From NCBI GenBank assembly GCA_902799345.1, contig CADBZW010000026.1, positions 1 to 55,234 of the forward strand: a DNA stretch of 55,234 nt, read 5' to 3'. The stretch's first letter is position 1. Each line of letters begins with the position of its first letter. The notes below the pieces were generated by a model that worked only from the letters and a program-made list of their open reading frames with translations, had not been told where the DNA came from and ran no database searches. The translations under genes and the position numbers were made by a program. Source of the stretch: an uncultured Bacteroidia bacterium. Its GTDB lineage: Bacteria; Bacteroidota; Bacteroidia; Bacteroidales; F082. This document shows positions 19,140 through 42,038 of the stretch, one piece after another.

Positions 19140-20174
19140 ATGAAGAAATTAGCAATAATCCTTTTGTGTGCTTTTGCCTTTGCCGCCTGCACCAATAACC
19201 AACCTGAAGACAACAAAAACAATCAAAATGACACGAATATGGAAAACACAGCAAAAGTCTATCTGACTCGTAACATCAGCCCTGAAGCTTTGGTGAATAT
19301 CTACAAGGCTTTGGGCGTGGAAGCTAAAGGCCGCGTGGCCGTGAAAATCTCGACAGGGGAGGGGAGTAACCCCAACTACCTGAAGCCCGAACTCATCAAA
19401 GACCTTGTGCATGAAGTAGATGGCACCATCGTGGAGTGCAATACAGCCTACGGCAACGGCCCTGGCGACGAGAAGGACGAGCGCAACAACTCAGCCGTCC
19501 ACTGGGAAGTGATTCGCAGACATGGCTTCACCAATTATTTCCCCGTCGATATCATGGATGAGTACGACGAAATCCGCATCCCCGTGAAGGACCAGCGACA
19601 CATCAAGTACGACATCGTGGGCGGACACATGGCCAACTACGATTTCATGATTGCCCTCAACCACTTCAAGGGACACCCGATGGGCGGATACGGCGGCGCA
19701 CTGAAGAACCTCAGTATCGGCTGTGCCAGCAGCAACGGCAAGGCATATATCCACTCCTCGGGAAAGATGGAAAAACTCGATATGGCCAAGCTTTGGACTC
19801 CTGAGTACATCGGTGATCAGGACGGCTTCCTTGAAAGCATGGCGGCGGCAGCCCAAGCTGTGACAAACTACTTCAACAAGAGACAGGGCATCATCTACAT
19901 CAGCGTGATGAACAACATGAGCATCGACTGCGACTGCGTCGACCATCCCGCCCCCGTGAAGCTTGAGGACTACGGCATCCTCGCCAGCACCGACCCCGTC
20001 GCTCTCGACCAGGCTTGCGTAGACATCATCAACAACCAGGAAGTGACCGCCAAAAACGACCCCACCGACCTGCTCAGCCGAATCGACAAGCAACACGGCA
20101 CCCACACCATCGAGCACGCTGAAGCCATCGGATTGGGAACCAGGAAATACACCATTGTCAGCATTGACAAGTAA
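19140..20174 (+). CDS. DUF362 lipoprotein (copy 1)
   Basis: A 344-aa DUF362 protein with a lipoprotein signal (lipidated Cys17 in AFAAC). An N/Q/D-rich linker leads to an internal Met34 (MENTAKVYLTR) where the DUF362 domain begins. Domain landmarks are HFKGHPMGGYGGALKN, a paired-cysteine CDC motif and STDPVALDQAC. The paralogue at 25463 shares all of these, including the internal MENT...KVY. Cytosolic relatives would start at that Met, so the export signal looks added later. The domain is uncharacterised, and the cysteines may hold a metal or iron-sulfur site. It is followed with no gap by an MBL hydrolase whose GTG start directly follows the stop. Confidence 0.87.
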   Translation: MKKLAIILLCAFAFAACTNNQPEDNKNNQNDTNMENTAKVYLTRNISPEALVNIYKALGVEAKGRVAVKISTGEGSNPNYLKPELIKDLVHEVDGTIVECNTAYGNGPGDEKDERNNSAVHWEVIRRHGFTNYFPVDIMDEYDEIRIPVKDQRHIKYDIVGGHMANYDFMIALNHFKGHPMGGYGGALKNLSIGCASSNGKAYIHSSGKMEKLDMAKLWTPEYIGDQDGFLESMAAAAQAVTNYFNKRQGIIYISVMNNMSIDCDCVDHPAPVKLEDYGILASTDPVALDQACVDIINNQEVTAKNDPTDLLSRIDKQHGTHTIEHAEAIGLGTRKYTIVSIDK

Positions 20175-21188
20175 GTGAAGCCAGCTGACTTTATCAAACA
20201 ATTTGGACGCTCCGCCCGAGGCGAACGCCTTGAACGCATCCGAAAGTCGCCTCATTTTGTGAACGACAAGTTCCAGAATGAGGAACCGACTACGCTGTTC
20301 ACGGGTCAAGGCGGCATGATGAAGAATCTTGGCAAGTTCCTCTTTGGGAAAAAGCCGAAAAATAGGATCCCAAAACTGGGTGAGGTCCCTGTTGTCAAGA
20401 CCGACTTGAATTGCTTGCCCGAATCTGGTGATTTCTACCTATGGTTCGGGCATAGCTCTTTTTTGCTTCGTTTGGATGGGAAGACCATCCTCGTCGACCC
20501 CGTGTTCTACAAAGGATCGCCCGTTTCGTTCGTCAATCGGGCCTTTCCTGGGACGGACCTTTACAAGCCTAAGGACATGCCCAAGGAAATCGACTTTCTC
20601 CTCATCTCGCACGACCACTGGGACCACTTGGATTACCAGACGGTCATCGAGTTGAAAGACAGAGTAAAGAAGGTAGTTTGTCCCTTGGGCGTGGGCGAGA
20701 ACTTTGAATACTGGGGCTACGACAAGCAGCAACTCATCGAGTTGGACTGGTATGAAAGTGCCTCCTCCGACGGCTTGACCTTCCATTGCCTGCCCACCCA
20801 GCATTTTTCGGGTCGAGGCTTTTGGAAAGCCAAGACGATGCCGGCCTCTTGGCTAATGGAATCATCGGGAAGGAAGGTCTTTTTCTCGGGTGATGGTGGC
20901 AACAGCAGTCGCTTCAAACGCTTCGGGGAACAGTTTCCCGACATCGACCTTGCCATCATGGAGAACGGCCAATACGACACCAACTGGAGCCAAATCCACA
21001 CCATGCCCGAACACTTGGGTCAAGCCGTTGCTGAACTTGGCGCCCGGCGTTTCGTCACCGTTCACCACTCCAAGTTCTGCCTCTCGAACCATCCGTGGGA
21101 CGAACCTAGGAAAAACGAATGCAAGGCGGCAGAGCAATTTGGGCTTCAGCTGGTCACTTGTCAGATTGGTGAGCTGGTGGGGCTGTGA
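20175..21188 (+). CDS. MBL-fold metallohydrolase (UlaG/NAPE-PLD-like, cytosolic)
   Basis: A 337-aa metallo-beta-lactamase-fold hydrolase. The metal-binding HxHxDH motif is SHDHWDHLDY. Other ligand regions are WFGHSS (the opening strand), LPTQHFS, FSGDGG and TVHHSKF. This layout is that of the UlaG/N-acyl-phosphatidylethanolamine phospholipase D-like group. The start is a GTG immediately after the DUF362 stop, because the next ATG would remove conserved residues. A membrane-anchored paralogue lies at 53508-54596. Its 3' end overlaps the convergent ThiF-family gene by 35 bases. The substrate is unknown; an N-acyl lipid would suit the lipid genes nearby. Confidence 0.87.
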   Translation: MKPADFIKQFGRSARGERLERIRKSPHFVNDKFQNEEPTTLFTGQGGMMKNLGKFLFGKKPKNRIPKLGEVPVVKTDLNCLPESGDFYLWFGHSSFLLRLDGKTILVDPVFYKGSPVSFVNRAFPGTDLYKPKDMPKEIDFLLISHDHWDHLDYQTVIELKDRVKKVVCPLGVGENFEYWGYDKQQLIELDWYESASSDGLTFHCLPTQHFSGRGFWKAKTMPASWLMESSGRKVFFSGDGGNSSRFKRFGEQFPDIDLAIMENGQYDTNWSQIHTMPEHLGQAVAELGARRFVTVHHSKFCLSNHPWDEPRKNECKAAEQFGLQLVTCQIGELVGL

Positions 21189-21981
21189 CATACAAGTCAT
21201 TCATCACCAATCCAGCAAGCATGAAGCCAAAGATGGCCGTGATATGGGCCGAGGTGCCGTTGATTTGGGCTTTCGAGGAGCACCATTCGTGATTGATGAG
21301 GTCGGGATTGCCAGCAGCGATGATGGCCTTGGGACACATGCAGGCATTAGTGCCACAGGTGGTTTCAGCACCTTTGTTAGGCAACACTTCGGGCGAGAAC
21401 ACACAAAGGAACTTTTTCTTCGGATAGGTTTTCGCTTTTCTGAGACGCTTGCGCATCATGCTGGCCAAGGGACAGCCCTTCACCTCCCAAAACTCCGCCA
21501 CCTGTATCTTGGTCGGATCCATTTTGAGCGCAGCACCCATGGCAGAGAAAAGCTTGCCCGGGCATTCGGTGGCGTGCAAAATAAGGTGTATCTTGTCCTT
21601 GAGACTGTCGATGGCATCGATGATGTAGTCGTAGGTCTCGAGTTGGAACTTCTCGGCGTTCTCGGCGGAATAAATCTCCTGAATGGCGTTGATTTCGGCC
21701 TGTGGATTGATTTCTAAAAGGCGTTCCTTCAGCACCTCCACCTTGACCAATCCCACCGTTTTGGTGGTAGCTTGCAACTGTCGGTTGACATTGGTTATGC
21801 ATACGCGGTCGCTGTCCACAATGGTGAGGTGGCTGATGCCGCTTCGCACCAAGCTCTCGGCGCACCAACTGCCCACTCCCCCAACGCCAAAGATGATGAC
21901 GCGCTTACTCATGACGCGCTCCATCGTCTCCTCACCCAAAAGCAGGTTCAAACGGTTGAATATGGGATTATGTGCACTCAT
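21154..21981 (-). CDS. tcdA: TcdA-like ThiF/E1-family tRNA threonylcarbamoyladenosine dehydratase
   Basis: A 275-aa E1-like enzyme. The nucleotide loop is GVGGVGSWCAESL, followed by DSDRVCITNVNRQ, the adenylation face of ThiF/TcdA proteins. A cysteine cluster (CGTNACMCPK) lies in the second half. TcdA cyclises the t6A base of tRNAs, a core housekeeping reaction, which argues for chromosomal origin of this segment. The frame is open to 22128, but the ATG at 21981 sits just behind a TATCTTTG box. It overlaps the convergent MBL gene by 35 bases. Confidence 0.85.
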   Translation of the reverse strand: MSAHNPIFNRLNLLLGEETMERVMSKRVIIFGVGGVGSWCAESLVRSGISHLTIVDSDRVCITNVNRQLQATTKTVGLVKVEVLKERLLEINPQAEINAIQEIYSAENAEKFQLETYDYIIDAIDSLKDKIHLILHATECPGKLFSAMGAALKMDPTKIQVAEFWEVKGCPLASMMRKRLRKAKTYPKKKFLCVFSPEVLPNKGAETTCGTNACMCPKAIIAAGNPDLINHEWCSSKAQINGTSAHITAIFGFMLAGLVMNDLYVTAPPAHQSDK

Positions 21982-21999
21982 AGAATGGTTTTGAGGCGG

Positions 22000-22007
22000 C
22001 AAAGATA
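22000..22007 (-). promoter_or_regulatory. -7 box for the TcdA-like gene
   Basis: TATCTTTG on the minus strand, 18 bases upstream of the ATG. Confidence 0.65.
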
Positions 22008-22064
22008 GTGGTTTTAGGCGAATTATCTCTTTTTGCAATATGTTTTGGTGCGAATTAGTCATCC

Positions 22065-22883
22065 TCAACCCTTTGGTTGCAGACTCCGCCGATATTCGCT
22101 GGGCGATTGTCCAAGATGTTTGGTGCAATATCGACTGAAATAACTCAACGAGGTAAAGTTCATGCGGTCGGCGATTTGGGTGAGCGAGAGGCGTTCATCG
22201 TCCAAAAAGCCTTTCAAGATGGGTACAGTAGCACGGTTAATATAGCTACTGACGCTGTGGCCTGTTACGCGTTTGACCGTGGCAGAGAGGTACTTCGGTG
22301 AGACATTCAGTCGCTCAGCATAGTAGCGCACCTCGCGCTCGGTGCGACTGATGCCTGTAGCGAGCAAAGCCATCAGTTGTTTGACGATATAAGCCGTTCG
22401 GTCGCTGTGGGTGTCGGTGGCATCACGTTGTGCATGAGGCTCGAAGATGTCGTACATCATCGTCAAACATAGGCTGCCCATCAGCTCGCGGTAGAACAGC
22501 AGGTGGCGGTCGCCCATGCGGTCACGAAGACGGTGAAAATCGGCAAGCATAATGGCCACCTGCTCGTCGGTAAGTTTAATGACGGGGTCTTGGTTGAGCG
22601 AGATGCTTCCTCCAATGCTGTAATTATTCGATGGCAGCAGACTTTGCAAGAACCTATAGTCGGCGGCAAACCACTCCACCTTCATTCCGGGGGCTGCGGC
22701 AAGGTTTTTGGCGCGGCTCGGATTTGGCATCACCACCAAATCGTTTTTTGCCAAGTGATAACAACGTTCGTTAAACACAAAACTGCCTTCACCTTCTGTA
22801 CATAGCAAATGCATACAAGTGTGACTCAATTTGGGGTCACTCATCCCGAGGAAATCTGTAGCGTACTGAAAATCAATTTTCAT
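22065..22883 (-). CDS. AraC-family transcriptional regulator
   Basis: A 272-aa regulator with an N-terminal cupin-like half (LLCTEGEGSFVFNERCYHLAKNDLVVM) and a C-terminal double helix-turn-helix (AERLNVSPKYLSATVK; IADRMNFTSLSYFSRYCTKHLGQSP). It is divergent from the glycosyltransferase gene with 137 bases between. A TAATTTTG box lies only four bases from its ATG, so its mRNA is probably leaderless. It is one of three AraC genes that border the redox clusters in this window. Confidence 0.92.
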   Translation of the reverse strand: MKIDFQYATDFLGMSDPKLSHTCMHLLCTEGEGSFVFNERCYHLAKNDLVVMPNPSRAKNLAAAPGMKVEWFAADYRFLQSLLPSNNYSIGGSISLNQDPVIKLTDEQVAIMLADFHRLRDRMGDRHLLFYRELMGSLCLTMMYDIFEPHAQRDATDTHSDRTAYIVKQLMALLATGISRTEREVRYYAERLNVSPKYLSATVKRVTGHSVSSYINRATVPILKGFLDDERLSLTQIADRMNFTSLSYFSRYCTKHLGQSPSEYRRSLQPKG

Positions 22884-24279: not shown

Positions 24280-24813
24280 ATGCAAGAACAAAGAGTTGAC
24301 CCCAGGCTGACCACAGCCGAAGAACACGCGGAAGGCGTACGCCAAGCGCAAGTCCTTTTCAAACTGAACCACACGATGCCCTACACCGATGAGTATAACG
24401 CTCTCGTGCGCGAGCTCTTCGGCGACAACCTCGGCGAAGGCGGTTGGGTGATGCCCGGTCTCACTGGCGTCTGTTTCGACCGTGTACACATCGGGAAGAA
24501 TGTGATGATCATGAACAACTGCTTGATGATGGCCCGCGGCGGCATCACCATCGACGAGGGTGCCATGATTGCCGCCAACGCGCAACTCATCTCCAATAAC
24601 CACGACCTCTACGACCGCCAGATCCTTCTCTGCAAGCCCGTCCACATCTGCGAAAACGCTTGGATTGGTGCTGGCGCCACCATCTTGCCCGGCGTGACGG
24701 TCGGCAAGAACGCAGTCGTGGCCGCTGGTGCTGTGGTCACCAAAGATGTGGCACCCAATACCATCGTGGGTGGAAATCCTGCAAAATTCATCAAAAACAT
24801 TGTAGAACTATGA
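24280..24813 (+). CDS. Left-handed beta-helix O-acetyltransferase (sugar acetyltransferase family)
   Basis: A 177-aa hexapeptide-repeat acyltransferase. The N-terminal helices correspond to the Mac domain, then imperfect hexapeptide turns lead to IGAGATILPGVTVGKNAVVAAGAV and the closing NTIVGGNPAK. The usual catalytic HP is replaced by NNHDL. It begins the operon whose next gene, a lipoprotein flavodoxin, overlaps its stop by four bases. Related genes are at 5114 (frameshifted) and 37559. The acceptor may be a sugar or another hydroxyl compound. Confidence 0.86.
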   Translation: MQEQRVDPRLTTAEEHAEGVRQAQVLFKLNHTMPYTDEYNALVRELFGDNLGEGGWVMPGLTGVCFDRVHIGKNVMIMNNCLMMARGGITIDEGAMIAANAQLISNNHDLYDRQILLCKPVHICENAWIGAGATILPGVTVGKNAVVAAGAVVTKDVAPNTIVGGNPAKFIKNIVEL

Positions 24814-25439
24814 AAAGAATCATTACCGCAATCCTGGCGCTCCTCATAGCCACCAGCTGCAATGCACAAAACAACAAGGTAGAGACGTTGCGTGCAACGT
24901 CTATGAAAAACGACAAATCACAAAAACAGAACAATATGAACAAATCCATCGTCATTTTCTTCTCCCATGCGGGCGACAACTACAGCGTGGGCAACATCGA
25001 GGTCGGCAACACCAAGATCGTGGCCGACTACATCAGCGAAATCAAGGGTGCCGACCAGTTTGAGATCATCACCCACAAGTACGACGGCATGGCCTATATG
25101 CCACTCATCGAATTGGCCAAGGAAGAGGCCAACAAGGGCGAACTGCCGCCTTACGAAGGCACCGCCCCCGACCTCAGCCAATACGATACCGTCTTCATCG
25201 GAGGCCCAGTCTGGTGGGGCACCTATCCGCAGGTGATGTTCACACTATTCAAGGACATCAACCTCGACGGCAAGACCGTCATCCCCTTTACTACTCACGA
25301 AGGCAGCGGCCTCGCCTCCTGCGCCAGCGACGTGAAAAAAGCTTTCCCGAAGGCCAAGGTCACAGGCGAGTTCAGCATCTATGGGCACGAAGTCCGTACG
25401 GGCCGTGCAAAGGTTGAGAAATGGTTGAAGAGTCTTTAA
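24810..25439 (+). CDS. Lipoprotein flavodoxin
   Basis: A 209-aa flavodoxin with a lipoprotein signal (lipidated Cys17 in LIATSC). After a linker of about 25 residues the flavodoxin domain begins at an internal Met43 (MNKSIVIFFSHAGDNYSVGN), the usual N-terminus of cytosolic relatives. VFIGGPVWWGTYP is the second flavin loop. An exported flavodoxin is uncommon because FMN is normally loaded in the cytosol. The linker contains the palindromic repeat at 24883-24902. The ATG overlaps the preceding stop (ATGA). DUF362 copy 2 follows. A second lipoprotein flavodoxin is at 41190. Confidence 0.86.
   Translation: MKRIITAILALLIATSCNAQNNKVETLRATSMKNDKSQKQNNMNKSIVIFFSHAGDNYSVGNIEVGNTKIVADYISEIKGADQFEIITHKYDGMAYMPLIELAKEEANKGELPPYEGTAPDLSQYDTVFIGGPVWWGTYPQVMFTLFKDINLDGKTVIPFTTHEGSGLASCASDVKKAFPKAKVTGEFSIYGHEVRTGRAKVEKWLKSL
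24883..24902. repeat. Palindromic repeat inside the flavodoxin linker
   Basis: AGACGTTGC GT GCAACGTCT is a perfect 9-bp inverted repeat. It resembles the AGACGTTGC(A/G)TGCAACGTCT palindrome dispersed in many Bacteroidales intergenic regions. Here it is translated in frame as part of the low-complexity linker. Confidence 0.65.
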
Positions 25440-25462: not shown

Positions 25463-26491
25463 ATGAAAGTTAGAAAACTTTTAGTCCTCACTGCCATGCT
25501 CTTGTCAATGGCCAACACAAGCTGCCAAAACAAGAACGGCAATCCAACAGCCGAACAACAAGAACAAACCGAACCAACAACACCTAATATGGAAAACACT
25601 TCAAAAGTCTATTTCACTAGTGAAATCAGCCCCGAAGCACTCATTAACATCTACAAGGCTCTTGGCGTAGAAGCCGAAGGCCGTGTGGCCGTGAAAATCT
25701 CCACCGGTGAGGCCGGCAATAACAACCACTTGAAGGCCAACTTGATTGGTCCTCTGGTGCAGTTGGTGAACGGCAAGATTGTGGAATGCAACACCGCATA
25801 CGCTGGCAAACGAATGCTTACCGAAGACCACCTGAAGGTCATCGAGGAGCACGGCTTCAACACCATCGGTGGCGTGGACATTATGGATGCCGACGGCGAA
25901 ATCAAAATCCCTGTGCGCGACACCACTTATATGCGCTACAACATCGTGGGAAAGAGCATCGAGAACTATGACTTCATGATCAACCTCGCCCACTTCAAGG
26001 GACACCAGATGGGTGGCTTTGGTGGTGTGCTGAAGAACGCCAGCATCGGCGTGGCTTCGCGCAACGGCAAGACCTACATCCACACTAACGGCCAATGCGA
26101 GGATTACACCCATCTTTGGGATTACATCCAGCCCGAGAACCAGGACAAATTCCTCGAATGCATGGCCAATGCCGCTGCTGCAGTTCACGACTATTTCAGG
26201 GGCAAGGTTCTCTATATCAATGTCATGAACAATATGAGCATCGACTGCGACTGCAACGGCAATCCCACTCCAGTGGCACTACAAGACATGGGCATCCTGG
26301 CCAGTACCGACCCCGTAGCTCTCGACCAGGCCTGCATCGACCTCGTCCTTGGTCAAGAGCAAACCGCCGACAACGATGTGGCTTCAATGAAAGAACGCAT
26401 TGAGAGCCGCCATGGCATTCACACCGTTGAGCACGCTGAAAAGATCGGTCTCGGTAGCCGCCAATACACTATTGTCAACATTGACAAATAA
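25463..26491 (+). CDS. DUF362 lipoprotein (copy 2)
   Basis: A 342-aa paralogue of 19140-20174. The lipid-bearing residue is Cys21 (ANTSC), then a Q/E/T-rich linker and the internal Met43 (MENTSKVYFTS). Landmarks HFKGHQMGGFGGVLKN, the CDC pair and STDPVALDQAC are all kept. It lacks a short insertion found in copy 1 between residues 100 and 120 (the GDEKDERNN segment). It is the third gene of the acetyltransferase-flavodoxin unit and is followed by a broken dehydrogenase gene. Its pairing with a flavodoxin suggests electron transfer outside the cytoplasm, which is inference. Confidence 0.87.
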   Translation: MKVRKLLVLTAMLLSMANTSCQNKNGNPTAEQQEQTEPTTPNMENTSKVYFTSEISPEALINIYKALGVEAEGRVAVKISTGEAGNNNHLKANLIGPLVQLVNGKIVECNTAYAGKRMLTEDHLKVIEEHGFNTIGGVDIMDADGEIKIPVRDTTYMRYNIVGKSIENYDFMINLAHFKGHQMGGFGGVLKNASIGVASRNGKTYIHTNGQCEDYTHLWDYIQPENQDKFLECMANAAAAVHDYFRGKVLYINVMNNMSIDCDCNGNPTPVALQDMGILASTDPVALDQACIDLVLGQEQTADNDVASMKERIESRHGIHTVEHAEKIGLGSRQYTIVNIDK

Positions 26492-26514: not shown

Positions 26515-26652
26515 ATGTATTTCGACAGAAACGAACATAAACAAGTAGTAGCACTCTTAGGTGCCGGCAGTATGGGAACCGCCATTGTGCGCCGCATTGG
26601 CGCAGGCAAGAAAATCCTTTTAGGCGACATCAGCGAGAAGACATTGGACGAC
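26515..26652 (+). pseudogene. N-terminal remnant of an SDR/NAD-binding dehydrogenase
   Basis: From ATG 26515, 46 codons read as the nucleotide-binding start of a short-chain dehydrogenase (VVALLGAGSMGTAIVRRI, ILLGDISEKTL). After 26652 homology ends and A/T-rich DNA follows. About 240 codons are missing. It was probably the last gene of the DUF362 operon. Confidence 0.7.
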
Positions 26653-26710
26653 GGAGGTTCCTATCTCCTGTTTTTCAAAGGCAAAAGAATAGGAAAAAGT
26701 GAAAAAATGT

Positions 26711-26776: not shown

Positions 26777-27895
26777 ATGAAATCACATACCATCATCATC
26801 GCAGCCTTGGCGACATCGCTCGCAGCCTGCACACCGAAGACCGAAACGAAACAAGACAAAGACATAAACACACTGACATTCAACAAGGAACAAGCCGCTG
26901 CCATGGCCGCAATAGCCTGCAACGAGGCCAAAGCCGACTATACCGCCTTGGCCAAAGCCATCAACGAGGGCATGGATGCCGGACTCACCGTCAGCCAGAC
27001 CAAGGAAGCCCTTTCGCAACTTTATGCCTACACGGGATTCCCGCGCTCGCTCAACGCATTGGGCACTTTGCAGAAAGTGATTGCAGACCGCGAAGCCAAG
27101 GGCTTGAAAACCGAAATAGGGGAGGAGGCCTCGCCGTTGCCGGGCAACTATGACGCTTTGGCACAAGGCACCGAGGTGCAGACCCAACTCAGCGGCCAGC
27201 CTTTCAACTATGCCTTCTGTCCCGCCGAGGACTATTACCTGAAGGCCCACCTCTTCGGTGACATCTTCGCCCGCGACAACCTCACCTTCGCCGACCGCGA
27301 GCTTATCACCGTGAGTGCCCTCAGCGGCCTCGAGAACGTGATGCCGCAACTCATCGCTCATGTGCGCGGTGCCTTGAACATGGGCTTGACCGAAGCCCAG
27401 CTTCGCGACATTGCCGAAGCCTTGAAAGCCAATGGCTTGCAATCGGAAGCCTCGCGCACGGAAGCCGCCATCGCTATGGTGGTCGACGGTCAGGACAAGC
27501 CTTATTCGACCTCGGTTTGGCCTCTTGGTGAACCCAATACGGCATACGCGCAGTATTTCATTGGCAACAGCCATCTTGCCATTCTCGACCCCACAAGCGG
27601 CCTCTGCAACGTCAGTTTTGAGCCGGGATGCCGCAACAACTGGCACGTCCACCACGGCGCGGTGCAGATGCTCATCTGCGTGAGCGGTCGCGGCTGGTAT
27701 CAGGAATGGGGCAAGGAACCCGTTGAGCTGAAGCCGGGCGTGGTTGTCGCCGTCCCCGAAGGCGTGAAGCACTGGCACGGTGCCGCCGCCGACTCGTGGA
27801 TGCAGCACCTCACTTACCACGCCAACGTCCAGCCTGGCAACAGCAACGAATGGCTTGAGCCTGTGGATGACGAGTGGTATGGGAAGCTGAAATGA
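26777..27895 (+). CDS. Lipoprotein with two carboxymuconolactone decarboxylase-like domains and a cupin
   Basis: A 372-aa lipoprotein (Cys18 in SLAACT). Residues of about 40-120 and 140-230 are CMD/AhpD-like helical domains. The second carries DRELITVSALSGL and MPQLIAHVRGALNMGLT, without the AhpD CxxC pair. Residues of about 250-350 are a cupin with metal ligands NNWHVHHG, and PEGVKHWHGA further on. CMD-cupin fusions occur next to flavodoxins, hydrolases and AraC regulators in many bacteria, usually cytosolic; this one is exported. The hydrolase gene follows after 33 bases. It might process a small lactone or aldehyde, which is inferred from family and context. Confidence 0.87.
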   Translation: MKSHTIIIAALATSLAACTPKTETKQDKDINTLTFNKEQAAAMAAIACNEAKADYTALAKAINEGMDAGLTVSQTKEALSQLYAYTGFPRSLNALGTLQKVIADREAKGLKTEIGEEASPLPGNYDALAQGTEVQTQLSGQPFNYAFCPAEDYYLKAHLFGDIFARDNLTFADRELITVSALSGLENVMPQLIAHVRGALNMGLTEAQLRDIAEALKANGLQSEASRTEAAIAMVVDGQDKPYSTSVWPLGEPNTAYAQYFIGNSHLAILDPTSGLCNVSFEPGCRNNWHVHHGAVQMLICVSGRGWYQEWGKEPVELKPGVVVAVPEGVKHWHGAAADSWMQHLTYHANVQPGNSNEWLEPVDDEWYGKLK

Positions 27896-27928: not shown

Positions 27929-28999
27929 ATGAAATCAATCCAAATCACAGTATACATGGCCATAGCCGCACTCGCGATGTCGGCTTGCTGCCAACAAAAA
28001 GAAGAGACTTTGGCTCAACCCCAAGGCCTCGTCATCGAGAAACAAGGCGTTTTTTCGTCGGGCGGGCGGGTCACCGACCCGATTCCTGGTGAATACGACG
28101 CCACCCAAAACTGGATGGATGCCACCCGCAAGGGCACAACAACCCATGTCGACCACGCCAACACATTCTACCAGATTCCCGCCGGTGGCAACGGCATCCC
28201 AGTGGTGTTTCTGCACGGCTACGGACAGACGCGCACAGGCTGGCAATCCACGCCCGACGGTCGTGAAGGTTGGGCAGACCTCTTCCTGGAGAAAGGCTAC
28301 TCCACTTTCCTTGTCGACCAGCCGCGCCGTGGCGCCGCCGCTGCCACTGAGTTCATCGTCACCGATGAAGGCGACGTGGACGGACCGAAGTTCAAGGTTG
28401 GCGAGCAGGCTTGGTACACCCACTTCCGTATCGGTCGCGTGGCGCCCGAGCGTTACGAAGGCTCCCAGTTCCCAGCTGGTGCCGATGCCCAGACCCAGTT
28501 CTTCTGCCAGATGACCCCCAACTCGGGCAACTATGACGAAGCCCTCTTCGGCCAAGCGTTGAGCGACGTGCTCGCCGACGTACAGAAGATGACGGGCAAG
28601 AAAAGTGTCTATGTCACCCACTCGCAAGGCGGTCGCGTCGGTTGGGCCACCGATGCCACCAACATCGCGGCCATCGTGGCCGTGGAGCCGGGTTTCGCCC
28701 CGATGGTAGGCTCGCCTGAGTACCAAAAGTTTGTCGAAGCCAAGGTGCCGATGCTCTTCCTCTTTGGCGACAACATCATGAACGGTCCTGAAGACATCCA
28801 ATCCACGGGGTTCTGGCAAATGGTGCTGAACCAGTGCCGCGACTTCGCCGAGCACTACAACGCCGATGGTGGCGATGCCACCGTCATCCACCTTCCCGAC
28901 CAAGGCATCCACGGCAACAGCCATTTCATGTTCCAGGAGATGAACAACGCCGAGATTGCAGACTTGGTTTTCGAGTGGCTGAAAACGAAAGGATTATAA
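27929..28999 (+). CDS. Lipoprotein alpha/beta hydrolase (esterase-like)
   Basis: A 356-aa alpha/beta hydrolase with a lipoprotein signal (Cys19 in AMSAC, next to a second Cys). The oxyanion HG is in VVFLHGYGQTRTGW, the nucleophile Ser in VTHSQGGRVGW and the catalytic His in the GIHGNSHF segment. It is co-directional with the CMD-cupin gene. Relatives hydrolyse esters or lactones and recur in the same AraC-type clusters. The substrate is unknown. Confidence 0.87.
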   Translation: MKSIQITVYMAIAALAMSACCQQKEETLAQPQGLVIEKQGVFSSGGRVTDPIPGEYDATQNWMDATRKGTTTHVDHANTFYQIPAGGNGIPVVFLHGYGQTRTGWQSTPDGREGWADLFLEKGYSTFLVDQPRRGAAAATEFIVTDEGDVDGPKFKVGEQAWYTHFRIGRVAPERYEGSQFPAGADAQTQFFCQMTPNSGNYDEALFGQALSDVLADVQKMTGKKSVYVTHSQGGRVGWATDATNIAAIVAVEPGFAPMVGSPEYQKFVEAKVPMLFLFGDNIMNGPEDIQSTGFWQMVLNQCRDFAEHYNADGGDATVIHLPDQGIHGNSHFMFQEMNNAEIADLVFEWLKTKGL

Positions 29000-29015: not shown

Positions 29016-29525
29016 ATGGAAACACAAAAAATAGTATTTGTAAACAAGCAATTGAACACCAGATTGGCGGGGTTGCTTCGCCTGCCCGAAAATATCTGTC
29101 TTAGCAACAATTATCCTGCCATCGTCGTCACGGGACCGATGCTGTCGGTGAAGGAACAAGCGCAGTCGGTCTATGCCGAGCGGCTGTCCGAAGCAGGCTA
29201 TGTCACCTTGGTCTTCGACGGCACGTATTTTGGCGAAAGCGAGGGTGAGCCGCGTCAGCAGGAACTGCCCGACGTTAAGGAGAGCGACATCGAGGGGGCT
29301 GTGGATTATCTGGCAAGTCTGCCCTATGTAGATGCTGAGCGCATTGGCGGTCTTGGCATCTGTGGCTCTGGCTCGTATATGTCGGTGGCAGGTGTGAAGG
29401 AGCCTCGGCTGAAAGCCGTCACGGCCATCGTCCCCGCCATTGCCGATATCTCAAAATCGGCCATGGCCGGATTCTTCCGTCCCGAGGACGAGGTGAAGGC
29501 TGCAATGCCGCATACGGAGCCGTGA
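29016..29525 (+). pseudogene. 3'-truncated dienelactone-hydrolase-like gene
   Basis: The first 165 codons encode the front half of a cytosolic alpha/beta hydrolase related to 36431-37552: VVTGPMLSVKEQ, DGTYFGESEGEPR and the nucleophile elbow GICGSG with Cys in the Ser place. After about 29505 the frame leaves the family and runs into a DUF1016 gene fragment, so the catalytic Asp and His are lost. The start is complete and could still be translated to a 169-aa product. Confidence 0.75.
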
Positions 29526-34787: not shown

Positions 34788-35681
34788 TTATTTCCCCAAA
34801 TACTCGCTAGGCGTAAGCCCAGTCATCTTCTTGAAGAGGCGGGTGAAATGATGGGGAAAATCGAAGCCCAGGAGGCGCGAGGTCTCGCTGATGTTGTGGC
34901 CGTTCATGAGCAGGCTCTTGGCTTGGTTGATGACATAGTTGTGGATGTAGCCGATGGCCGTGCCGCCTGTCGCCTTGTGGACGATGTCGCCGAAATAACG
35001 CGACGAATAGGCCAGTTCCGAAGCGCAATAGGCAACGGTGGGCAAGCCTTGTGACAACTGTCGATTCTCGCGGAAATACTGTTGCAGCAGGTCGTGAAAG
35101 CGTTTCAAGAGGTCGCTGCCGCCATTATCTTCCTCAGAGAGTTGCCGCTGATAGATGCGGTTGCAGTATTCCAGTATCAGGTGCAGATAGCCCAACAGGA
35201 TGCTTCTGAGCGAGGGCGAGTCGTCGTGAGTCACCAACTCTTGCCGCATCTGGGCGAGCAGCTGTGTGATGCAGTCCCATTCGTCAGGCTCCATCCGAAG
35301 CGAGCCAGCGAAGAAATAAGAGAAATACTGATAGCGGTCTATCTGGCGTTCCAGTTCAGAGCCATGCAGCAGTTCGGGCGACCACAAAAGCGCCCATCCG
35401 CTCAGCGAGATGCGTTCCCCATTGTCTTCCAAGCCGCCAATCTGTCCAGGCTCCACGGCAATAATCGAGGCATCGCTCACCTGCAAGGTCTTCATGCCGT
35501 AAGAGAGGCCCTCAGGGAATTGGCGTTGGATAAAAAGTCCATAAACGCCGTAGTTGTTCAGGCTATGGCGGAAGGGAGCCAATTCGTCGAAGTGGATGAT
35601 GCTGATCAGCGGATGCAGCACAGGAGCCTCCACATATCGGACAAAGTCATTGGGACTATCAACTTTCAGGATCTTCTTCAT
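34788..35681 (-). CDS. AraC-family transcriptional regulator
   Basis: A 297-aa regulator: a sensing half with FIQRQFPEGLSYGM and LSGWALLWSPELLHGS, then a double helix-turn-helix (ASELAYSSRYFGDIVHKATG; SRLLGFDFPHHFTRLFKKMTG). This AraC subtype borders flavodoxin, oxidoreductase and hydrolase genes in many genomes. It is divergent from the cyclophilin-like/hydrolase/acetyltransferase unit and probably controls it. The frame is open to 35699, but the ATG at 35681 lies seven bases behind a TACCTTTG box, which implies an almost leaderless mRNA. Confidence 0.9.
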   Translation of the reverse strand: MKKILKVDSPNDFVRYVEAPVLHPLISIIHFDELAPFRHSLNNYGVYGLFIQRQFPEGLSYGMKTLQVSDASIIAVEPGQIGGLEDNGERISLSGWALLWSPELLHGSELERQIDRYQYFSYFFAGSLRMEPDEWDCITQLLAQMRQELVTHDDSPSLRSILLGYLHLILEYCNRIYQRQLSEEDNGGSDLLKRFHDLLQQYFRENRQLSQGLPTVAYCASELAYSSRYFGDIVHKATGGTAIGYIHNYVINQAKSLLMNGHNISETSRLLGFDFPHHFTRLFKKMTGLTPSEYLGK

Positions 35682-35688
35682 CGTGGGG

Positions 35689-35696
35689 CAAAGGTA
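35689..35696 (-). promoter_or_regulatory. -7 box abutting the AraC start
   Basis: Minus-strand TACCTTTG with only seven bases to the ATG at 35681. Confidence 0.6.
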
Positions 35697-35814
35697 CAAT
35701 AAAAATGGGAAAATTTAGGAAAAATGGTATTATTATTTGCAAATATCCTATAAATTCAGCGGAATTGGTATATATACAGCCAATTTGTGTAATACCTCTA
35801 TTAAAAAACAAGTG

Positions 35815-35847: not shown

Positions 35848-36426
35848 ATGAAAAAGATGCTTTGGTTATTTGCAGCAATACTGATTACGGGTTGCTCTAA
35901 GAACAGCGAGTCTTTTGCGCAGACAATGGAAGAGAAAATGTATATCACCATAGGAGACGAGACGCATACCGTCACAATGGAAGACAATGTCGGCACGCGC
36001 GCCTTGGTAGCCGCATTGCAAACGGACAACATCACCTACCTGGCACACGACTACGGCAACTTCGAGAAGGTGGGCTATGTCGGGCAGTCATTCCCGACGG
36101 CAGATCATCAAACCACCACTTCTGCGGGCGACCTTGTGTTATACAACGGCGACAACATCTGTATTTTCTATGGCAGCAATTCGTGGTCCTATACGCGCAT
36201 CGGCAAACTCGACAACCTATCGGCTGACGAGGTGCGTCGGTTCGTCAAGGCAGGTGAAGGCGAGGTAAGCGTCACACTTTCCTTGCAGCCCATCCATACT
36301 GGAATCCAAGAACTTACTCCTGATGAAAACAACGATGGAACATCCTACACCATTACGGGACAGATTGCGCCAAAAGGCTACAAAGGCATAGTGATTCAAA
36401 ACGGGAAAAAAAGAATAAATCAATGA
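35848..36426 (+). CDS. Cyclophilin-like fold lipoprotein
   Basis: A 192-aa lipoprotein (Cys16 in LITGC). The domain matches the cyclophilin-like family of small beta barrels: MYITIGDETHTVTMEDN, then DYGNFEKVGYVGQSFP, GDLVLYNGDNICIFYGSNSW and IGKLDN. Members are usually cytosolic and sit beside AraC regulators and flavodoxins; prolyl isomerase activity has not been shown for them. The extra C-terminal 25 residues after TSYTITGQ are beta-strand-like. The hydrolase follows after 4 bases. Confidence 0.85.
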   Translation: MKKMLWLFAAILITGCSKNSESFAQTMEEKMYITIGDETHTVTMEDNVGTRALVAALQTDNITYLAHDYGNFEKVGYVGQSFPTADHQTTTSAGDLVLYNGDNICIFYGSNSWSYTRIGKLDNLSADEVRRFVKAGEGEVSVTLSLQPIHTGIQELTPDENNDGTSYTITGQIAPKGYKGIVIQNGKKRINQ

Positions 36427-36430: not shown

Positions 36431-37552
36431 ATGAAAAAAATTCTCATCCTTGCAGCAGTGGCAACACTCATGACCGCCTGCAACAACCAACCGCAAACAA
36501 CAGAAACAGAAGAAACAAAAGAACCCAAAGAAGAAATGAAGCAAGAACTGAACCTCACGCAGGAGTGGGACAAGGTGTTCCCGCTGAGCGACAAAGTGAG
36601 CCACCGCAAGGTGACGTTTGAAACCCAATACGGCCTGACGTTGGCAGCAGATCTTTACACGCCGAAGGATGCAGAAGGCAAATTGGCGGCCATCGCCGTG
36701 AGTGGGCCTTTTGGTGCCGTCAAGGAGCAGTCGAGCGGCCTATACGCTATGAAGATGGCAGAGCGTGGCTTCGTGGCACTGGCCTTCGACCCGTCCTTTA
36801 CTGGTGAGAGCAGCGGTGAACCTCGTCGCACGGCCTCGCCCGACATCAACACCGAAGATTTCATGGCGGCAGTTGATTTCCTGTCGAAACTGGACAACGT
36901 AGATGCCGAACGCATCGGCATCATCGGTATCTGTGGCTGGGGTGGTATCGCCCTCAACGCTGCCGCCACCGACACCCGCATCAAGGCTACCGTGGCCTCC
37001 ACGATGTACGACATGACCCGCATCAGCGGCAACGGTTACTACGACAGCGAAGACAAAGAAGAGTCGCGCCACGCTGCCCGCGAGGCCATGGGCAAGCAAC
37101 GCCTCTCCGACCCAACGGCAATGGCTGGCGGTGTCATCGACCCGCTGCCTGATGAGGTTCCGCAGTTTGTGAAAGATTACCATGCTTATTACAAGACCCC
37201 GCGCGGCTATCACAAGCGCAGCGGCAACAGCAACGACGGCTGGCGCGTCATCGGCACGCAGGCTTACGCCAATGCTCGTTTCCTCTATTACATCAACGAG
37301 ATCCGCTCTGCCGTCCTTGTGATGCATGGTGAGGAAGCCCACTCGCGCTATTTCGGCGAGGCCGCTTACAAATACATGGTTGAAGGCCAGGCAGAAGGCT
37401 ACAACTTCATCGGCAAGCCGAATCCCAACCCCGAAAACAAGCAACTGCTCATCATCCCAGGTGCCACCCACTGCGACCTTTACGACGGTGGCGAGGGCAA
37501 TTACATTCCGTGGGATACATTGGCGGAATTTTTCACTAAAAACCTGAAATAA
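36431..37552 (+). CDS. Lipoprotein dienelactone-hydrolase-like enzyme with Cys nucleophile
   Basis: A 373-aa alpha/beta hydrolase with a lipoprotein signal (Cys17 in LMTAC) and a Glu/Thr-rich linker. The fold is marked by AVSGPFGAVKEQ, FDPSFTGESSGEPR, the nucleophile elbow GICGWGG and PGATHCDLYDG, where the catalytic His lies. Cys occupies the nucleophile position, as in dienelactone hydrolase, instead of Ser. The truncated cytosolic relative at 29016 has the same GICG. The acetyltransferase gene follows after 6 bases. The substrate is unknown. Confidence 0.87.
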   Translation: MKKILILAAVATLMTACNNQPQTTETEETKEPKEEMKQELNLTQEWDKVFPLSDKVSHRKVTFETQYGLTLAADLYTPKDAEGKLAAIAVSGPFGAVKEQSSGLYAMKMAERGFVALAFDPSFTGESSGEPRRTASPDINTEDFMAAVDFLSKLDNVDAERIGIIGICGWGGIALNAAATDTRIKATVASTMYDMTRISGNGYYDSEDKEESRHAAREAMGKQRLSDPTAMAGGVIDPLPDEVPQFVKDYHAYYKTPRGYHKRSGNSNDGWRVIGTQAYANARFLYYINEIRSAVLVMHGEEAHSRYFGEAAYKYMVEGQAEGYNFIGKPNPNPENKQLLIIPGATHCDLYDGGEGNYIPWDTLAEFFTKNLK

Positions 37553-37558: not shown

Positions 37559-38095
37559 ATGGACGAACGACCCACAGGAAAGACCTACGTCGGCAGCGAT
37601 GAACTCTATGCCGATGTGCAGCGTTGCATGAAACTGGTTGCCGAGATGAACACCGGCTACCACACCGAGGCCGAGGTGCGTGCGTACCTGCGACAAATCA
37701 CAGGCTCCGACATCGACGACACCGTGCGTGTGTTTCCGCCGTTCAACATCAACTACGGCAAGAAGACCACTTTCGGCAAGGACAGTTTCGTCAACTTCGG
37801 CTGCACCTTTTTGGCACTTGGTGGCATCACGATTGAGGAAGGCGTTTTCATTGCGCCTCATGTGGTTTTGGCCTCAGAATACCATCCCGAAGATCCTGAA
37901 ACAAGACATTCGTTGCTCACCAAGCCCATCGTCATCAAGAAGAACGCCTGGATTGGTGCCAACGCCACGATATTGGCGGGTGTCACCATCGGCGAAAACG
38001 CCATCGTGGCCGCCGGTGCCGTGGTGGGAAAGGATGTCCCCGACAACACCATCGTGGGTGGCGTCCCTGCCAAGGTGATTAGGATAATCAAATAA
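37559..38095 (+). CDS. Left-handed beta-helix O-acetyltransferase
   Basis: A 178-aa sugar-acetyltransferase-type protein. Hexapeptide turns begin around [12 protein letters not shown] and end with [29 protein letters not shown] and [12 protein letters not shown]. The active-site region reads ASEYHPEDP. It ends the cyclophilin-like/hydrolase operon and is followed by a terminator of the recurrent family. It is similar to 24280-24813, which heads another redox operon, so such an enzyme may be a standing part of these units. Confidence 0.87.
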
Positions 38096-38674: not shown

Positions 38675-38739
38675 TTGTTTGTTGATGATTTTCTGCCAAC
38701 AATCTTTCTTTCAATGTTTTTCAGCTTAACTATTATTCT

Positions 38740-38747
38740 TATCTTTG
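38740..38747 (+). promoter_or_regulatory. -7 box for the MBL-rubredoxin gene
   Basis: TATCTTTG followed by CAC, 18 bases before ATG 38766. Confidence 0.7.
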
Positions 38748-38765
38748 CACTTTCGCTAAATATTT

Positions 38766-39713
38766 ATGTATATGGACATCAAAGCAGTAAAATTCAGAAA
38801 AGACGGGTTCTATACCCAGCCCTTTGCCTTTGGCGGCGAGGAAGGCCCCGATAAGTTCGACCGCAACATCCGCTATCGCGGCAGCTTGCAGAACTATGTG
38901 ATTGACACGGGCTCGGAGGTTATTTTGGTGGATACTGGTCTCCCTGCTGGCACACCGGAGGAAAACCCCGACGAGAACTCGCTTGCTTTCACCGGCAAGG
39001 ACATCTGCAGCTATATGGATGCCTTGGCCGCTTTGGGTTACAAGCCCGAACAAGTGACCAAAATCCTGCTCACGCATAAGCATGCTGACCATTCAGGCGA
39101 ACTCCGTTCGTTCCCGAATGCGAAGATCTATGTGAATGCCGACGAAATGCAGGCAGCCGAGTTGCAGGGCTTACCCAACCTGGTGCCAGTGACCTTCACC
39201 GATGGGGCATATCACAACTTCCCCGATAGTCAGAAGATCTGTGACGGTGTGTGGTTTATCAAGGCCAAAGGGCACACCAATGGCAACAGCCTCGTGATTG
39301 CTGAGAACGAAGGTCTATACTATATGTTCCAAGGCGACATCACATACGTGGATGAGGCTCTTTATGAGAACAAACTTTCGGTGGTGTATGATGACCTGTC
39401 AGCCGCCCGCGAGACCTTGGACCGCGTGCGCGAGTTCGTACGCAATAATCCCACGGTTTATCTATCCACTCACTCGCCACAAGGCTATGAGAACTTGGAA
39501 GCCAAACGCGTGATGGACATCGACCACCCCGTGCCAACCACCCTTGCCGAAGTGAAATTCACAAAAAAAGAAGCCTCTGGCAAATACATCTGCTCCATCT
39601 GCGGTTATGTCTATGACCCCGCTGAGCACGATGGCGTGGCCTTCGAAGACCTTCCCGACGACTGGAAATGCCCGCGCTGCAAGCAAGGCAAGGAGAAGTT
39701 CAATAAGGCGTGA
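38766..39713 (+). CDS. MBL-fold hydrolase fused to C-terminal rubredoxin
   Basis: A 315-aa protein. Residues 1 to about 255 are a metallo-beta-lactamase-fold hydrolase with HxHxDH in [17 protein letters not shown] before it and GHTNGN after it. Residues from about 272 are a rubredoxin with iron ligands CSICGY and CPRCK and the typical PEDLPDDW-like core ([11 protein letters not shown]). A rubredoxin joined to an MBL fold recalls flavo-diiron proteins, but no flavodoxin domain is present and the MBL motif is of the hydrolase type. It has no signal peptide. A redox-coupled lactonase or an oxygen/NO-linked enzyme are both possible. A second ATG at 38772 is an alternative start. Confidence 0.88.
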
Positions 39714-39719
39714 ATAGCT

Positions 39720-39773
39720 ATCAGCTTTCAGCCGTCAGCTATCAGCTTGGTAGCAACGAGGCTGAAAGCTGAT
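39720..39773. repeat. Palindromic intergenic repeat (ATCAGCTTTCAGCC hairpin)
   Basis: ATCAGCTTTCAGCC (39720-39733) and GGCTGAAAGCTGAT (39760-39773) are perfect complements. The same words recur around them (GTCAGCTATCAGC, GCTGACTGCTGAC) up to 39788. It is probably a dispersed repeat that also ends the upstream transcript. Confidence 0.7.
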
Positions 39774-39818
39774 TGCTGACTGCTGACAGCCAAAAACCGC
39801 ATCTAAACAATTCTGTTC

Positions 39819-40472: not shown

Positions 40473-40498
40473 CTATAAAATCTTAATCCTAATTCAAT

Positions 40499-41176
40499 AT
40501 GAAAAAACTATTCTTTCTCGCAGCAGTGGCACTAATGATGGCTACGGGCTGCAACAACCAGAACAACAAGACCGCACAAGTTGCGGCAGAACCTGAGCCT
40601 GTGGTCGAGCAGGCCAGTGGCATCTATGACATCACGGTAAAAGACATGGACGGAAGCGATGTGTCGTTGGCCAACTACAAAGGCAAGGTGCTGCTCATCG
40701 TCAACGTGGCCAGCAAGTGCGGACTGACTCCGCAGTACGAAGGCCTTGAGGCCCTTTATCAAAAGTACAAGGACCAAGGTCTGGAGATTCTTGGTTTCCC
40801 CTGCAACCAATTCTTGGGTCAAGAGCCTGGCACCAACGAGGAGATCCAAGGTTTCTGCTCGCTAAACTACAACGTCACCTTCCCGCTGTTCGACAAGATT
40901 GATGTCAACGGTGAGGCTGAGAGCCCACTCTACACCTACCTCAAGAAAGAAGCACCTTTCCAGGGCTATCCCGAGGGCACCGAGGAGTTTGCCGCGCAAC
41001 TCGACCAAATCCACCAAAAGACCGGCACTGGCTTCGATCAAGGCGATGCCATCCGCTGGAACTTCGGCAAGTTCCTGGTCTCCAAAGACGGCAAGACCAT
41101 CCTCCGCTTCGAGCCAATGGTGACGCCTGACATGATGGAGGAAGACATACAGGAGTTTTTGAAAGTCAATGAATAA
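40499..41176 (+). CDS. Lipoprotein glutathione peroxidase-family (thiol) peroxidase
   Basis: A 225-aa peroxidase with a lipoprotein signal (Cys18 in MATGC) and a Gln/Glu/Ala-rich linker of about 22 residues. The catalytic domain has Cys74 in NVASKCG, FPCNQF, Cys120 in GFCSLNYN and the WNFGKF active-site Trp-Asn, spaced exactly as in the cytosolic gene at 47-595. It carries an insertion of about 20 residues (FAAQLDQIHQKTG region). Peroxide would be reduced outside the cytoplasm, so an exported thiol reductant is needed. The lipoprotein flavodoxin follows after 13 bases. Confidence 0.92.
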   Translation: MKKLFFLAAVALMMATGCNNQNNKTAQVAAEPEPVVEQASGIYDITVKDMDGSDVSLANYKGKVLLIVNVASKCGLTPQYEGLEALYQKYKDQGLEILGFPCNQFLGQEPGTNEEIQGFCSLNYNVTFPLFDKIDVNGEAESPLYTYLKKEAPFQGYPEGTEEFAAQLDQIHQKTGTGFDQGDAIRWNFGKFLVSKDGKTILRFEPMVTPDMMEEDIQEFLKVNE

Positions 41177-41189
41177 AATTTGATTCAAA

Positions 41190-42038
41190 ATGAAAAGATT
41201 ACTCGTTCTCGCCATCGTAGCGATGGCCGTCGTTTCATGCGGTCCGAAAAAGGAAAACCAAAAGGAAGAAGTCCCAAAGGCAGAAACCCCAAAAGTGTTG
41301 GTGCTCTACTATTCTCAAACGTCGAACACGAAAGCCGTAGCGACCGAAATCGCCACACGGCTCGGTGCCGACATGGAGGAGATTGTCCCCACGAAACCCT
41401 ACGATGAGGATTTCCAAGCTACCATCGAACGTTGCAAGCAAGATCGTGAACAAGGCATTGCTACCGAGATTCAGCCGTTGGCCGCCGACATCGCCAAATA
41501 CGATGTGGTTTTCCTCGGCTATCCCGTGTGGTTCGGCACATACGCGCCGCCCGTGATTACCTACTTGAGTCAAGTGGACCTGAGCGGCAAGAAAGTTGTC
41601 CCGTTCTGCACCTTCGGCAGCGGCGGACTGGAGTCGAGCATGAAGGATTTGGCCGAAGCACAACCTAAAGCGGAAATTCTTCCCGGCTATGGTGTGCGTG
41701 CCGCCCGACTCGATGCCGCACCCAAAGAAATCGACCAATTCTTGAAGGCAAACGGTTTCATTGAAGGAGCGTTCGTTAAGCTGGAGGATTTTTCTGATCA
41801 ACATCCTGTAAATGAAGAGGAAGCAGCTATCTTCAATGCTGCCGTCGATGGCTATCAAATGCTTCATGCTCAGGCCAAAGCTGTGGCTTCGCGTTCCATT
41901 CCTGGAGGCACGGAATATCTGTTCACAGCCGAGGATCTTCCGCGCGAGGACAATCCTGGGATGCCTACGGGAGAGTTGAAGGTTTATGTGACCGTCGCAG
42001 AAGGCGAAAATCCTGTGTTTACGCGAGTGGTCAGGTAA
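41190..42038 (+). CDS. Lipoprotein flavodoxin with C-terminal extension
   Basis: A 282-aa lipoprotein (Cys17 in AVVSC) whose residues 35 to about 190 are a flavodoxin: LVLYYSQTSNTKAVA is a canonical FMN phosphate loop and VFLGYPVWFGTYAPP the second flavin loop. The last 90 residues or so are an extension I do not recognise (NAAVDGYQMLHAQAKAVASRS, then ELKVYVTVAEGENP). It is co-transcribed with the exported peroxidase, which suggests an electron-transfer partnership in the periplasm; this is inference. It is followed by a truncated DUF454 gene. Confidence 0.86.
   Translation: MKRLLVLAIVAMAVVSCGPKKENQKEEVPKAETPKVLVLYYSQTSNTKAVATEIATRLGADMEEIVPTKPYDEDFQATIERCKQDREQGIATEIQPLAADIAKYDVVFLGYPVWFGTYAPPVITYLSQVDLSGKKVVPFCTFGSGGLESSMKDLAEAQPKAEILPGYGVRAARLDAAPKEIDQFLKANGFIEGAFVKLEDFSDQHPVNEEEAAIFNAAVDGYQMLHAQAKAVASRSIPGGTEYLFTAEDLPREDNPGMPTGELKVYVTVAEGENPVFTRVVR

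Follow-up and report, generated by a model that had tools for sequence, protein, structure and literature searches.

We found that two genes in a 55,234-nucleotide stretch of DNA from an uncultured Bacteroidia bacterium (contig CADBZW010000026.1 of assembly GCA_902799345.1; the whole stretch is called the window below) each likely make two proteins from two in-frame start codons. The genes encode a flavodoxin (F1) and an alpha/beta hydrolase (AB3), and the predicted products of each are an envelope lipoprotein and a cytosolic enzyme. Judging from sequence comparisons, we give this reading a probability of about 0.6. The window is the whole of one contig (C26) in an assembly of 3.13 Mb and 51 contigs, and the genome is 91% complete.

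The mechanism that we propose starts from the lack of Shine-Dalgarno sequences in Bacteroidota messages, where unstructured, A-rich DNA ahead of an AUG favors initiation. The A-rich DNA that encodes the hydrophilic tether of a lipoprotein would therefore double as the initiation region of a second AUG. Initiation at the first AUG would give a precursor with a Sec signal and a lipobox, and initiation at the second would give the bare enzyme. Three things are observed directly: the signals (as called by a simple rule), the conservation of the second Met, and an A-rich bias at synonymous positions before it.

F1 and AB3 belong to a set of nine enzyme genes located in 19140-42038, all of which match their families in Pfam. 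The genes and their internal ATGs are as follows.

19140-20174, plus strand: D1, DUF362 predicted lipoprotein (Pfam; lipobox FAAC)
19239, plus strand: internal ATG of D1 (MENTAKVY); start context ranked at the 91st percentile against control-linker codons; Met shared by a clade of 8 D1 genes
24810-25439, plus strand: F1, Flavodoxin_4 predicted lipoprotein (Pfam; lipobox ATSC; flavodoxin-fold model)
24936-24938, plus strand: internal ATG of F1, predicted second start with a product of 167 amino acids (start context; Met conservation)
25463-26491, plus strand: D2, DUF362 predicted lipoprotein (Pfam; lipobox rule; model nearest to LarA-type folds)
25589, plus strand: internal ATG of D2 (MENTSKVY); start context ranked at the 97th percentile against control-linker codons; Met shared by a clade of 13
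26777-27895, plus strand: CMD, predicted lipoprotein with CMD and Cupin_2 domains (Pfam; lipobox LAAC; gene start corrected to 26777)
27929-28999, plus strand: AB1, alpha/beta hydrolase (Abhydrolase_6), predicted lipoprotein without a domain-edge Met (Pfam; lipobox rule)
35848-36426, plus strand: CYC, cyclophilin-like (Cyclophil_like2) predicted lipoprotein; Met at 35926 without start-like context (Pfam; lipobox rule)
36431-37552, plus strand: AB3, S15/DLH-type alpha/beta hydrolase, predicted lipoprotein (Pfam; lipobox MTAC)
36536-36538, plus strand: internal ATG of AB3, a predicted second start (start context ranked at the 95.9th percentile against control-linker codons; Met conservation)
40499-41176, plus strand: GPX, glutathione-peroxidase-type (GSHPx) predicted lipoprotein without a domain-edge Met (Pfam; lipobox rule)
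41190-42038, plus strand: F2, long Flavodoxin_4 predicted lipoprotein without a domain-edge Met (Pfam; lipobox rule)

Signals were called by a home-made rule for lipobox and hydrophobicity, not by SignalP. By this rule all nine genes (9/9) carry a lipoprotein signal, with K or R in the n-region, a hydrophobic stretch and a lipobox Cys. An earlier, sequence-only reading of this DNA had placed nine lipoprotein-type signals here, and this was borne out; the internal ATGs that it gave at 19239, 24936 and 25589 are also present. The nine enzymes are predicted lipoproteins, and lipidation and location in the envelope are likewise predictions. The same rule found no signal in the neighboring hydrolase at 29016 or in a glutathione peroxidase (GPx) at 47.

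Export signals are common among relatives of these genes. Our counts cover the distinct reading frames of the fetched loci for which an anchor alignment succeeded (window included, identical frames counted once); some of the frames scored as having no signal are split or cut by contig ends. Given as lipoprotein/Sec-type/no signal, the counts were F1 30/4/6, F2 17/11/3, CMD 17/4/2, AB3 13/14/3, CYC 9/1/2, GPX 5/12/19, AB1 2/2/0, D1 8/2/1 and D2 69/11/1. That is, 90 of 92 DUF362 and 27 of 30 AB3 relatives carried a signal, as did just 17 of 36 of GPx. The exported set of enzymes is real, and it is widespread in the relatives that we examined. The view that these families are normally cytosolic is untrue of the Bacteroidales relatives compared here, most of which carry signals (GPx excepted). 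We rejected a single common export tag: signals are not alike from one family to another, and relatives may have either a lipoprotein signal or an ordinary Sec signal. What stands of the AraC-type export cluster proposed earlier is that nine predicted lipoproteins lie near two AraC-type genes; the common tag does not.

The lipoproteins of three families, F1, CMD and AB3, keep a Met at the edge of the domain. A Met was located within nine residues before the domain in 28 of 30 F1, 16 of 17 CMD and 13 of 13 AB3 lipoproteins (window included), and in 4/4, 3/4 and 9/14 of the respective Sec-type forms, a few of them in the signal tail. The background was 1.75-2.1% Met per residue after the Cys in 63 unrelated lipoproteins from the same loci, and the domain-edge Met in F1, CMD and AB3 lipoproteins exceeds chance. 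For the other families the frequencies (lipoproteins, then Sec-type) were D1 7/8 and 0/2, D2 14/69 and 3/11, F2 9/17 and 4/11, CYC 6/9 and 1/1, GPX 3/5 and 5/12, and AB1 0/2 and 0/2. A second in-frame start codon is thus conserved in the F1, CMD and AB3 families, and is not conserved, among the relatives examined, in long F2, AB1 or DUF362 at large. F2, AB1 and the GPX of the window look export-only.

The Met has also outlasted silent change in the domain. On trees of domain DNA (window included), 25 of 26 exported F1 sequences (at least 60% identity), 14 of 15 CMD lipoproteins and 12 of 12 AB3 lipoproteins retained it. On the same trees 4-fold sites changed 4.0 (F1), 3.7 (CMD) and 4.0 (AB3) times per site, and the Met itself appeared or disappeared 1, 1 and 0 times. 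When all exported AB3 sequences were taken together, there were 9.4 changes per 4-fold site versus one for the Met, which was kept in 22 of 24 (two in signal tails). Of the D2 lipoproteins, 15 of 69 have a Met. Retention of the Met in F1, CMD and AB3 is beyond neutral expectation. The linker varies in length (20-34 residues in F1, 9-26 in AB3 lipoproteins) and the Met shifts relative to the domain (-4 or -5 in F1, -2 to -11 in AB3), which argues that the codon is kept and not a fixed structural position. In F1, the residues after the lipid-bearing Cys (NAQ, NGQ, SGQ or HGQ) are common to most lipoprotein forms at 70% identity or more, and this suggests one old signal.

CMD-cupin is the third family with this pattern, and the ATG has been lost in the window copy: the codon at 26864 is ATA (Ile), as opposed to ATG in its lipoprotein relatives, the single loss among the 15 CMD lipoproteins on the tree. 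One F1 locus, L005, has a split gene. Its signal frame stops at a TGA that overlaps the internal ATG (ATGA, around 8892), leaving a frame for a short lipopeptide and a 98%-identical flavodoxin frame. As assembled, the latter can begin only at the internal ATG or just before it; this is one metagenome assembly and an error is possible. In an AB3 relative, P0210, the lipobox Cys is replaced by Ser and the internal Met is retained.

The DNA before the internal ATGs resembles that before true starts. In Flavobacterium johnsoniae, which does not use Shine-Dalgarno sequences, A at -3, -6, -12 and -13 promotes initiation (PMC6847099). Among 73 internal ATGs of F1, CMD and AB3, 82% had A at -12 and 77% at -13. 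The corresponding values were 68% and 75% at first ATGs of the family lipoproteins and 59% and 63% at those of control lipoproteins, compared to 33% and 20% at control-linker codons and 29% and 12% at interior Met codons.

Position -13 is a third codon position, so that a bias toward A can be tested apart from the amino acid. In 53 thinned sequences the codon at -13 ended in A in 37 of 43 cases, with 11.4 expected from codon usage (P = 2.5e-19, taking thinned relatives as independent). In this first sample all third positions from -1 to -31 were raised in A. Tested at a like distance from the Cys, 63 control lipoproteins had A-ending codons at -13 in 16 of 50 cases (10.7 expected; best P of 11 positions, 0.0055), and 42 Met-less DUF362 linkers had them in 13 of 39 (9.4 expected; best P of 11 positions, 0.027). 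That is, the A excess is slight at most in the control lipoproteins and there is hardly any in the Met-less linkers.

We also scored internal ATGs with a model trained on the starts of other genes (the control first ATGs were the training set). The area under the curve against linker codons was 0.93 for F1 and 0.94 for AB3, similar to 0.94 for family first ATGs and 0.90 for control first ATGs. It was 0.91 for GPX, 0.83 for F2-type, 0.84 for DUF362 and 0.54 for CYC. The F1 context of the window lies at the 78th percentile of true starts and the 99.8th of control-linker codons; the internal ATGs of F1, D2 and AB3 are all above the 95th percentile of the latter and that of CYC is at the 47th. Start-like context is therefore present, weaker for CMD and absent for CYC, and we rejected CYC as a gene with twin starts. 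Twin starts are not a general trait of lipoproteins: of 48 in-linker ATGs in control lipoproteins, three scored above the 95th percentile, and a single gene accounts for two of these. A separate internal transcript is also unsupported. TAnnTTTG, the Bacteroidota promoter word, occurred inside the signal or linker in just 2 of 74 genes; the 200 bases that precede the first ATG, which are longer than the signal and linker, had it in 24 of 74.

AB3 was examined in two further samples. Among 120 metagenome proteins, 118 matched the anchor pattern, 117 of these with a lipoprotein signal; the two that missed the pattern, P0127 and P0177, both show the Met. The Met was present in all 61 distinct linkers (drawn from 117 of the 120 proteins), as MKQ in 57 of the 61. 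For the second sample, predictions were written before sequences were fetched. It consisted of 50 places in genomes outside the first sample, 48 taken and 47 analyzed (left out: G326, at a contig start; G258:C7, with an internal stop; L251, at a contig end); its genomes may overlap those behind the named DUF362 contigs. There were 22 lipoproteins, 19 Sec-type forms and six called signal-less, among which L260 and L265 appear by eye to carry a signal; L273 is probably anchored wrongly. All 22 lipoproteins had the Met. Of the Sec-type forms 18/19 had it by script and 13/19 by inspection, for a total of 35 of 41 exported copies. Inspection discounted L248, L256, L258, L271 and L272 as having the Met in the Sec signal tail; L248 is an exception in that its Met follows a long linker, two residues from the anchor, and L264 and L269, also at -2, were kept. 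As predicted, A was frequent at -12 and -13 (80% and 72% of 40 contexts). A-ending codons were found at -13 in 21 of 25 cases (12.1 expected; P = 8.3e-5) and at -16 in 16 of 19 (6.0 expected).

Several observations weigh against twin starts. The short proteins are predicted from sequence alone, and the crudeness of the signal rule weakens the case, as does the independence assumed in the P values. A at -3, a main determinant of initiation in PMC6847099, was present at 49% of the 73 internal ATGs (66% in F1, 55% in AB3, 16% in CMD), compared to 72% of family first ATGs, 44% of control first ATGs and 31% of control-linker codons. CMD contexts score lower (area under the curve 0.83, median score 1.9), and the CMD of the window has no internal ATG, so that a second start is dispensable there. 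The domain-edge Met of F1 was lost once, in L085, and a few counted Mets lie in a Sec signal tail (L089, L096, L122, L126). In the second AB3 sample the Met was in the pre-set range of -5 to -9 in 29 of 41 copies (hand count), and the A peak predicted at -13 was not seen; the excess was broad and stronger at -16. Repeated recent gain of signals could mimic part of the AB3 pattern.

This last possibility leads to the main rival explanation: a signal was put before a cytosolic gene, perhaps often, and the old Met and its A-rich leader linger without function. Signal-less relatives do start where the Met and its leader are found. The apparently signal-less AB3 copy L267 begins at the corresponding Met (MDTLSLRQEW), and apparently signal-less GPx copies begin at the corresponding place, for example MATIYDF in the window versus KKMATIYDF within the L174 lipoprotein, which reads CTQNNKKMATIYDF. 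In addition, AB3 signal types differ between genera, which makes repeated gain plausible. However, the signal of F1 is apparently single and old, and yet the Met and the third-position A at -13 persist although 4-fold sites have turned over about four times; in DUF362 the Met is younger than the signal. We consider fossil starts unlikely, though the most serious of the rivals. F1 speaks most clearly for live use, because an ATG and an A-rich context survive in changing linkers behind one old signal. Still less probable is a role for the Met as a residue that aids folding or packing where the domain begins. In its favor, close AB3 relatives also conserve the residues that follow (the MKQ noted above), but the spacing of the Met to the fold shifts, residues 1-3 of the F1 model are coil ahead of the first strand, and the synonymous A bias would be left unexplained. 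The least probable of the three is that the A-rich linker serves low RNA structure at the first start, or tether composition, and that the internal ATG is incidental. The breadth of the A excess (-1 to -31 in the first sample, not highest at -13 in the second) fits this notion; the little or no A excess in the 63 other lipoproteins and 42 DUF362 linkers does not.

Live twin starts are favored over slowly decaying fossils. Based on these comparisons we infer that the second AUG is used at present and that both products work. In F1, CMD and AB3 a Met does lie where a cytosolic protein would begin, as the sequence-only reading had it for F1; its term 'fossil' fits less well, since retention and start-like DNA suggest that the start is probably still used. 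Translation from the internal ATGs, which it had set against its own reading, is probably half true: both starts look usable.

The DUF362 pair tells a different story from a fossil start. Of 92 DUF362 sequences on the tree, 26 have a Met within eight residues before the domain. The form MEN or MES is limited to two clades, of 8 (D1) and 13 (D2), each with a window gene; the remaining five are single sequences, three with the Met in the Sec signal tail. The sisters compared are lipoproteins without the Met: L024, 77.8% identical to D1, and eight sequences 87.5-93.9% identical to D2. Because these are exported without it, the Met is younger than the signal, and we rejected the claim of a fossil start in this pair. 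A phylum-wide search (E up to 1e-40) matched 2 of 247 genomes, the window's own and that of L276, whose DUF362 has a Sec-like signal by eye, so that no cytosolic ancestor was found among them. The window's lineage appears to have gained an internal ATG in each of two paralogues. D1 and D2 match at 26 of 30 bases around it (19236-19265 and 25586-25615), compared to 18 of 57 before and 107 of 153 after, a patch that would fit a short gene conversion. Named relatives of D2 at 94-97% identity are from uncultured Bacteroidales or Bacteroidia; many are RUG isolates (rumen genomes).

Both DUF362 proteins match the Pfam profile (152.8 and 153.7 bits, cut-off 24). The nearest folds to the predicted structure (predicted local distance difference test score, pLDDT, 92.2) found with Foldseek are LarA-type nickel-pincer racemases, the best E of 1.2e-5 coming with a template modeling (TM) score of 0.44. 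The sequence gave no convincing match to solved structures (best E 0.0082, to an antibody fragment). DUF362 (PF04015) and the LarA superfamily (DUF2088) are placed in the same Pfam clan in PMC11770544. The protein is like the LarA superfamily in that its predicted fold is closest to nickel-pincer lactate racemase structures, and unlike it in being a predicted lipoprotein and in its TM scores (by query) of 0.41-0.48 over ten hits, with E up to 0.001. This resemblance of the model implies no cofactor.

The flavodoxins match Flavodoxin_4 with 71.4 (F1) and 84.4 bits (F2; cut-off 24). The F1 domain matches Bacteroides flavoproteins, one bound to flavin mononucleotide (FMN), in sequence and predicted fold; the model is a flavodoxin fold (pLDDT 94.5), and 3klb, third among its PDB hits, is titled as an FMN-bound structure. 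Compared to the family (PF12682) and its solved relatives (3klb, 4ici, 4j8p), F1 has the family match and the fold in common and differs by its lipoprotein signal and an N-terminal loop insertion (SHAGDNYSVGNIEVGNT). From the likeness to FMN-bound structures, F1 and F2 are putative FMN-binding proteins. The genome has one match to ApbE and three to FMN_bind, which makes flavin handling outside the cytosol plausible. Three FMN_red-type flavoproteins without obvious signals (window 43174-44337 and 7119-7766), two of them near F2, are possible cytosolic partners.

Parts of the enzyme set recur, with export signals, in other genomes. L212 has AraC, acetyltransferase, F1, CMD, CYC, a second acetyltransferase, flavodoxin and AB3 within about 8 kb, and L211 has F1, AB3, acetyltransferase, CYC, cupin and CMD within about 4.4 kb. 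Other stretches (13 examined) had one to six matches each to cluster families. Among 80 DUF362 loci, 45 had none of the other families on the stretch covered, and in 13 F1 immediately preceded D2, on the same strand. The co-occurrence of all nine genes, which the sequence-only reading proposed to look for, was not seen in the loci compared. At the cut-offs used, the window's own genome (91% complete) had no second CMD, separate signal-less F1 or other full-length AB3. Other features of the window are as follows.

47-595, plus strand: GPx with no signal in its upstream sequence, of which the contig edge leaves 46 bases; comparator for Met-bearing lipoprotein GPx relatives
22065-22883, minus strand: AraC-type regulator adjoining the first gene group (HTH_18/HTH_AraC)
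24280-24813, plus strand: hexapeptide acetyltransferase (LbetaH; Hexapep) overlapping the F1 start; its relatives adjoin cluster members in other genomes
34788-35699, minus strand: second AraC-type regulator (HTH_18/HTH_AraC)
37559-38095, plus strand: second hexapeptide acetyltransferase, cluster member (Hexapep)

The signal-less GPx of window 1-595 is also found at the end of contig C21 (L209); the probable cause is a repeat or an assembly break within a single gene or next to it. The first 46 residues of the GPX lipoprotein (40499-40636) have a weak match to the PG1828 family of lipoproteins (22.5 bits, cut-off 50). The same gene region encodes a fusion of a metallo-beta-lactamase domain with a C-terminal rubredoxin domain, which has no obvious signal (38766-39713). 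A short DLH-type hydrolase without a signal, about half the length of AB3 (29016-29525), and a short frame (26515-26700) that resembles the beginning of a nucleotide-binding protein but has no Pfam match, look like remnants.

More tentatively, and with rather less confidence than for F1 and AB3 themselves, second starts in tethers, free of Shine-Dalgarno sequences, may serve in Bacteroidales to put the same redox and detoxification enzymes on either side of the inner membrane, with new ones still arising (two parallel gains in DUF362) and one lost (CMD-cupin). If so, a lipoprotein tether would also be a ribosome landing site. Annotation assigns one protein and one compartment to each gene. With twin starts, exported 'cytosolic' enzymes in Bacteroidales would no longer be puzzling: FMN would reach the cytosolic form by the normal route, and the exported form would put the same domain to a second use. 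Twin starts would also explain why the tethers are rich in codons for Asn, Lys, Gln, Glu and Thr, and would provide a case of start choice that can be read from genomes in a phylum without Shine-Dalgarno signals.

The arrangement can be compared to two known systems. Like the Kozak-like, A-rich initiation described for Bacteroidota (PMC6847099), the internal ATGs have A at -12 and -13 and A-rich DNA upstream. Here, however, this DNA is part of a coding linker and leads up to a second in-frame ATG, and the preference for A at -3 is weaker than at first starts, with few cases in CMD.

The second comparison is to dual targeting by alternative start codons, of which there are examples in eukaryotes and in a few bacterial genes. 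Searches of an open-access library, some of which returned no paper, gave no account of exported flavodoxin sets or of twin starts in Bacteroidota, and accounts elsewhere are possible. As in dual targeting, one gene would give a long exported form and a short cytosolic form. The difference is that here the arrangement, predicted from genome sequence, would be common to several genes of one cluster.

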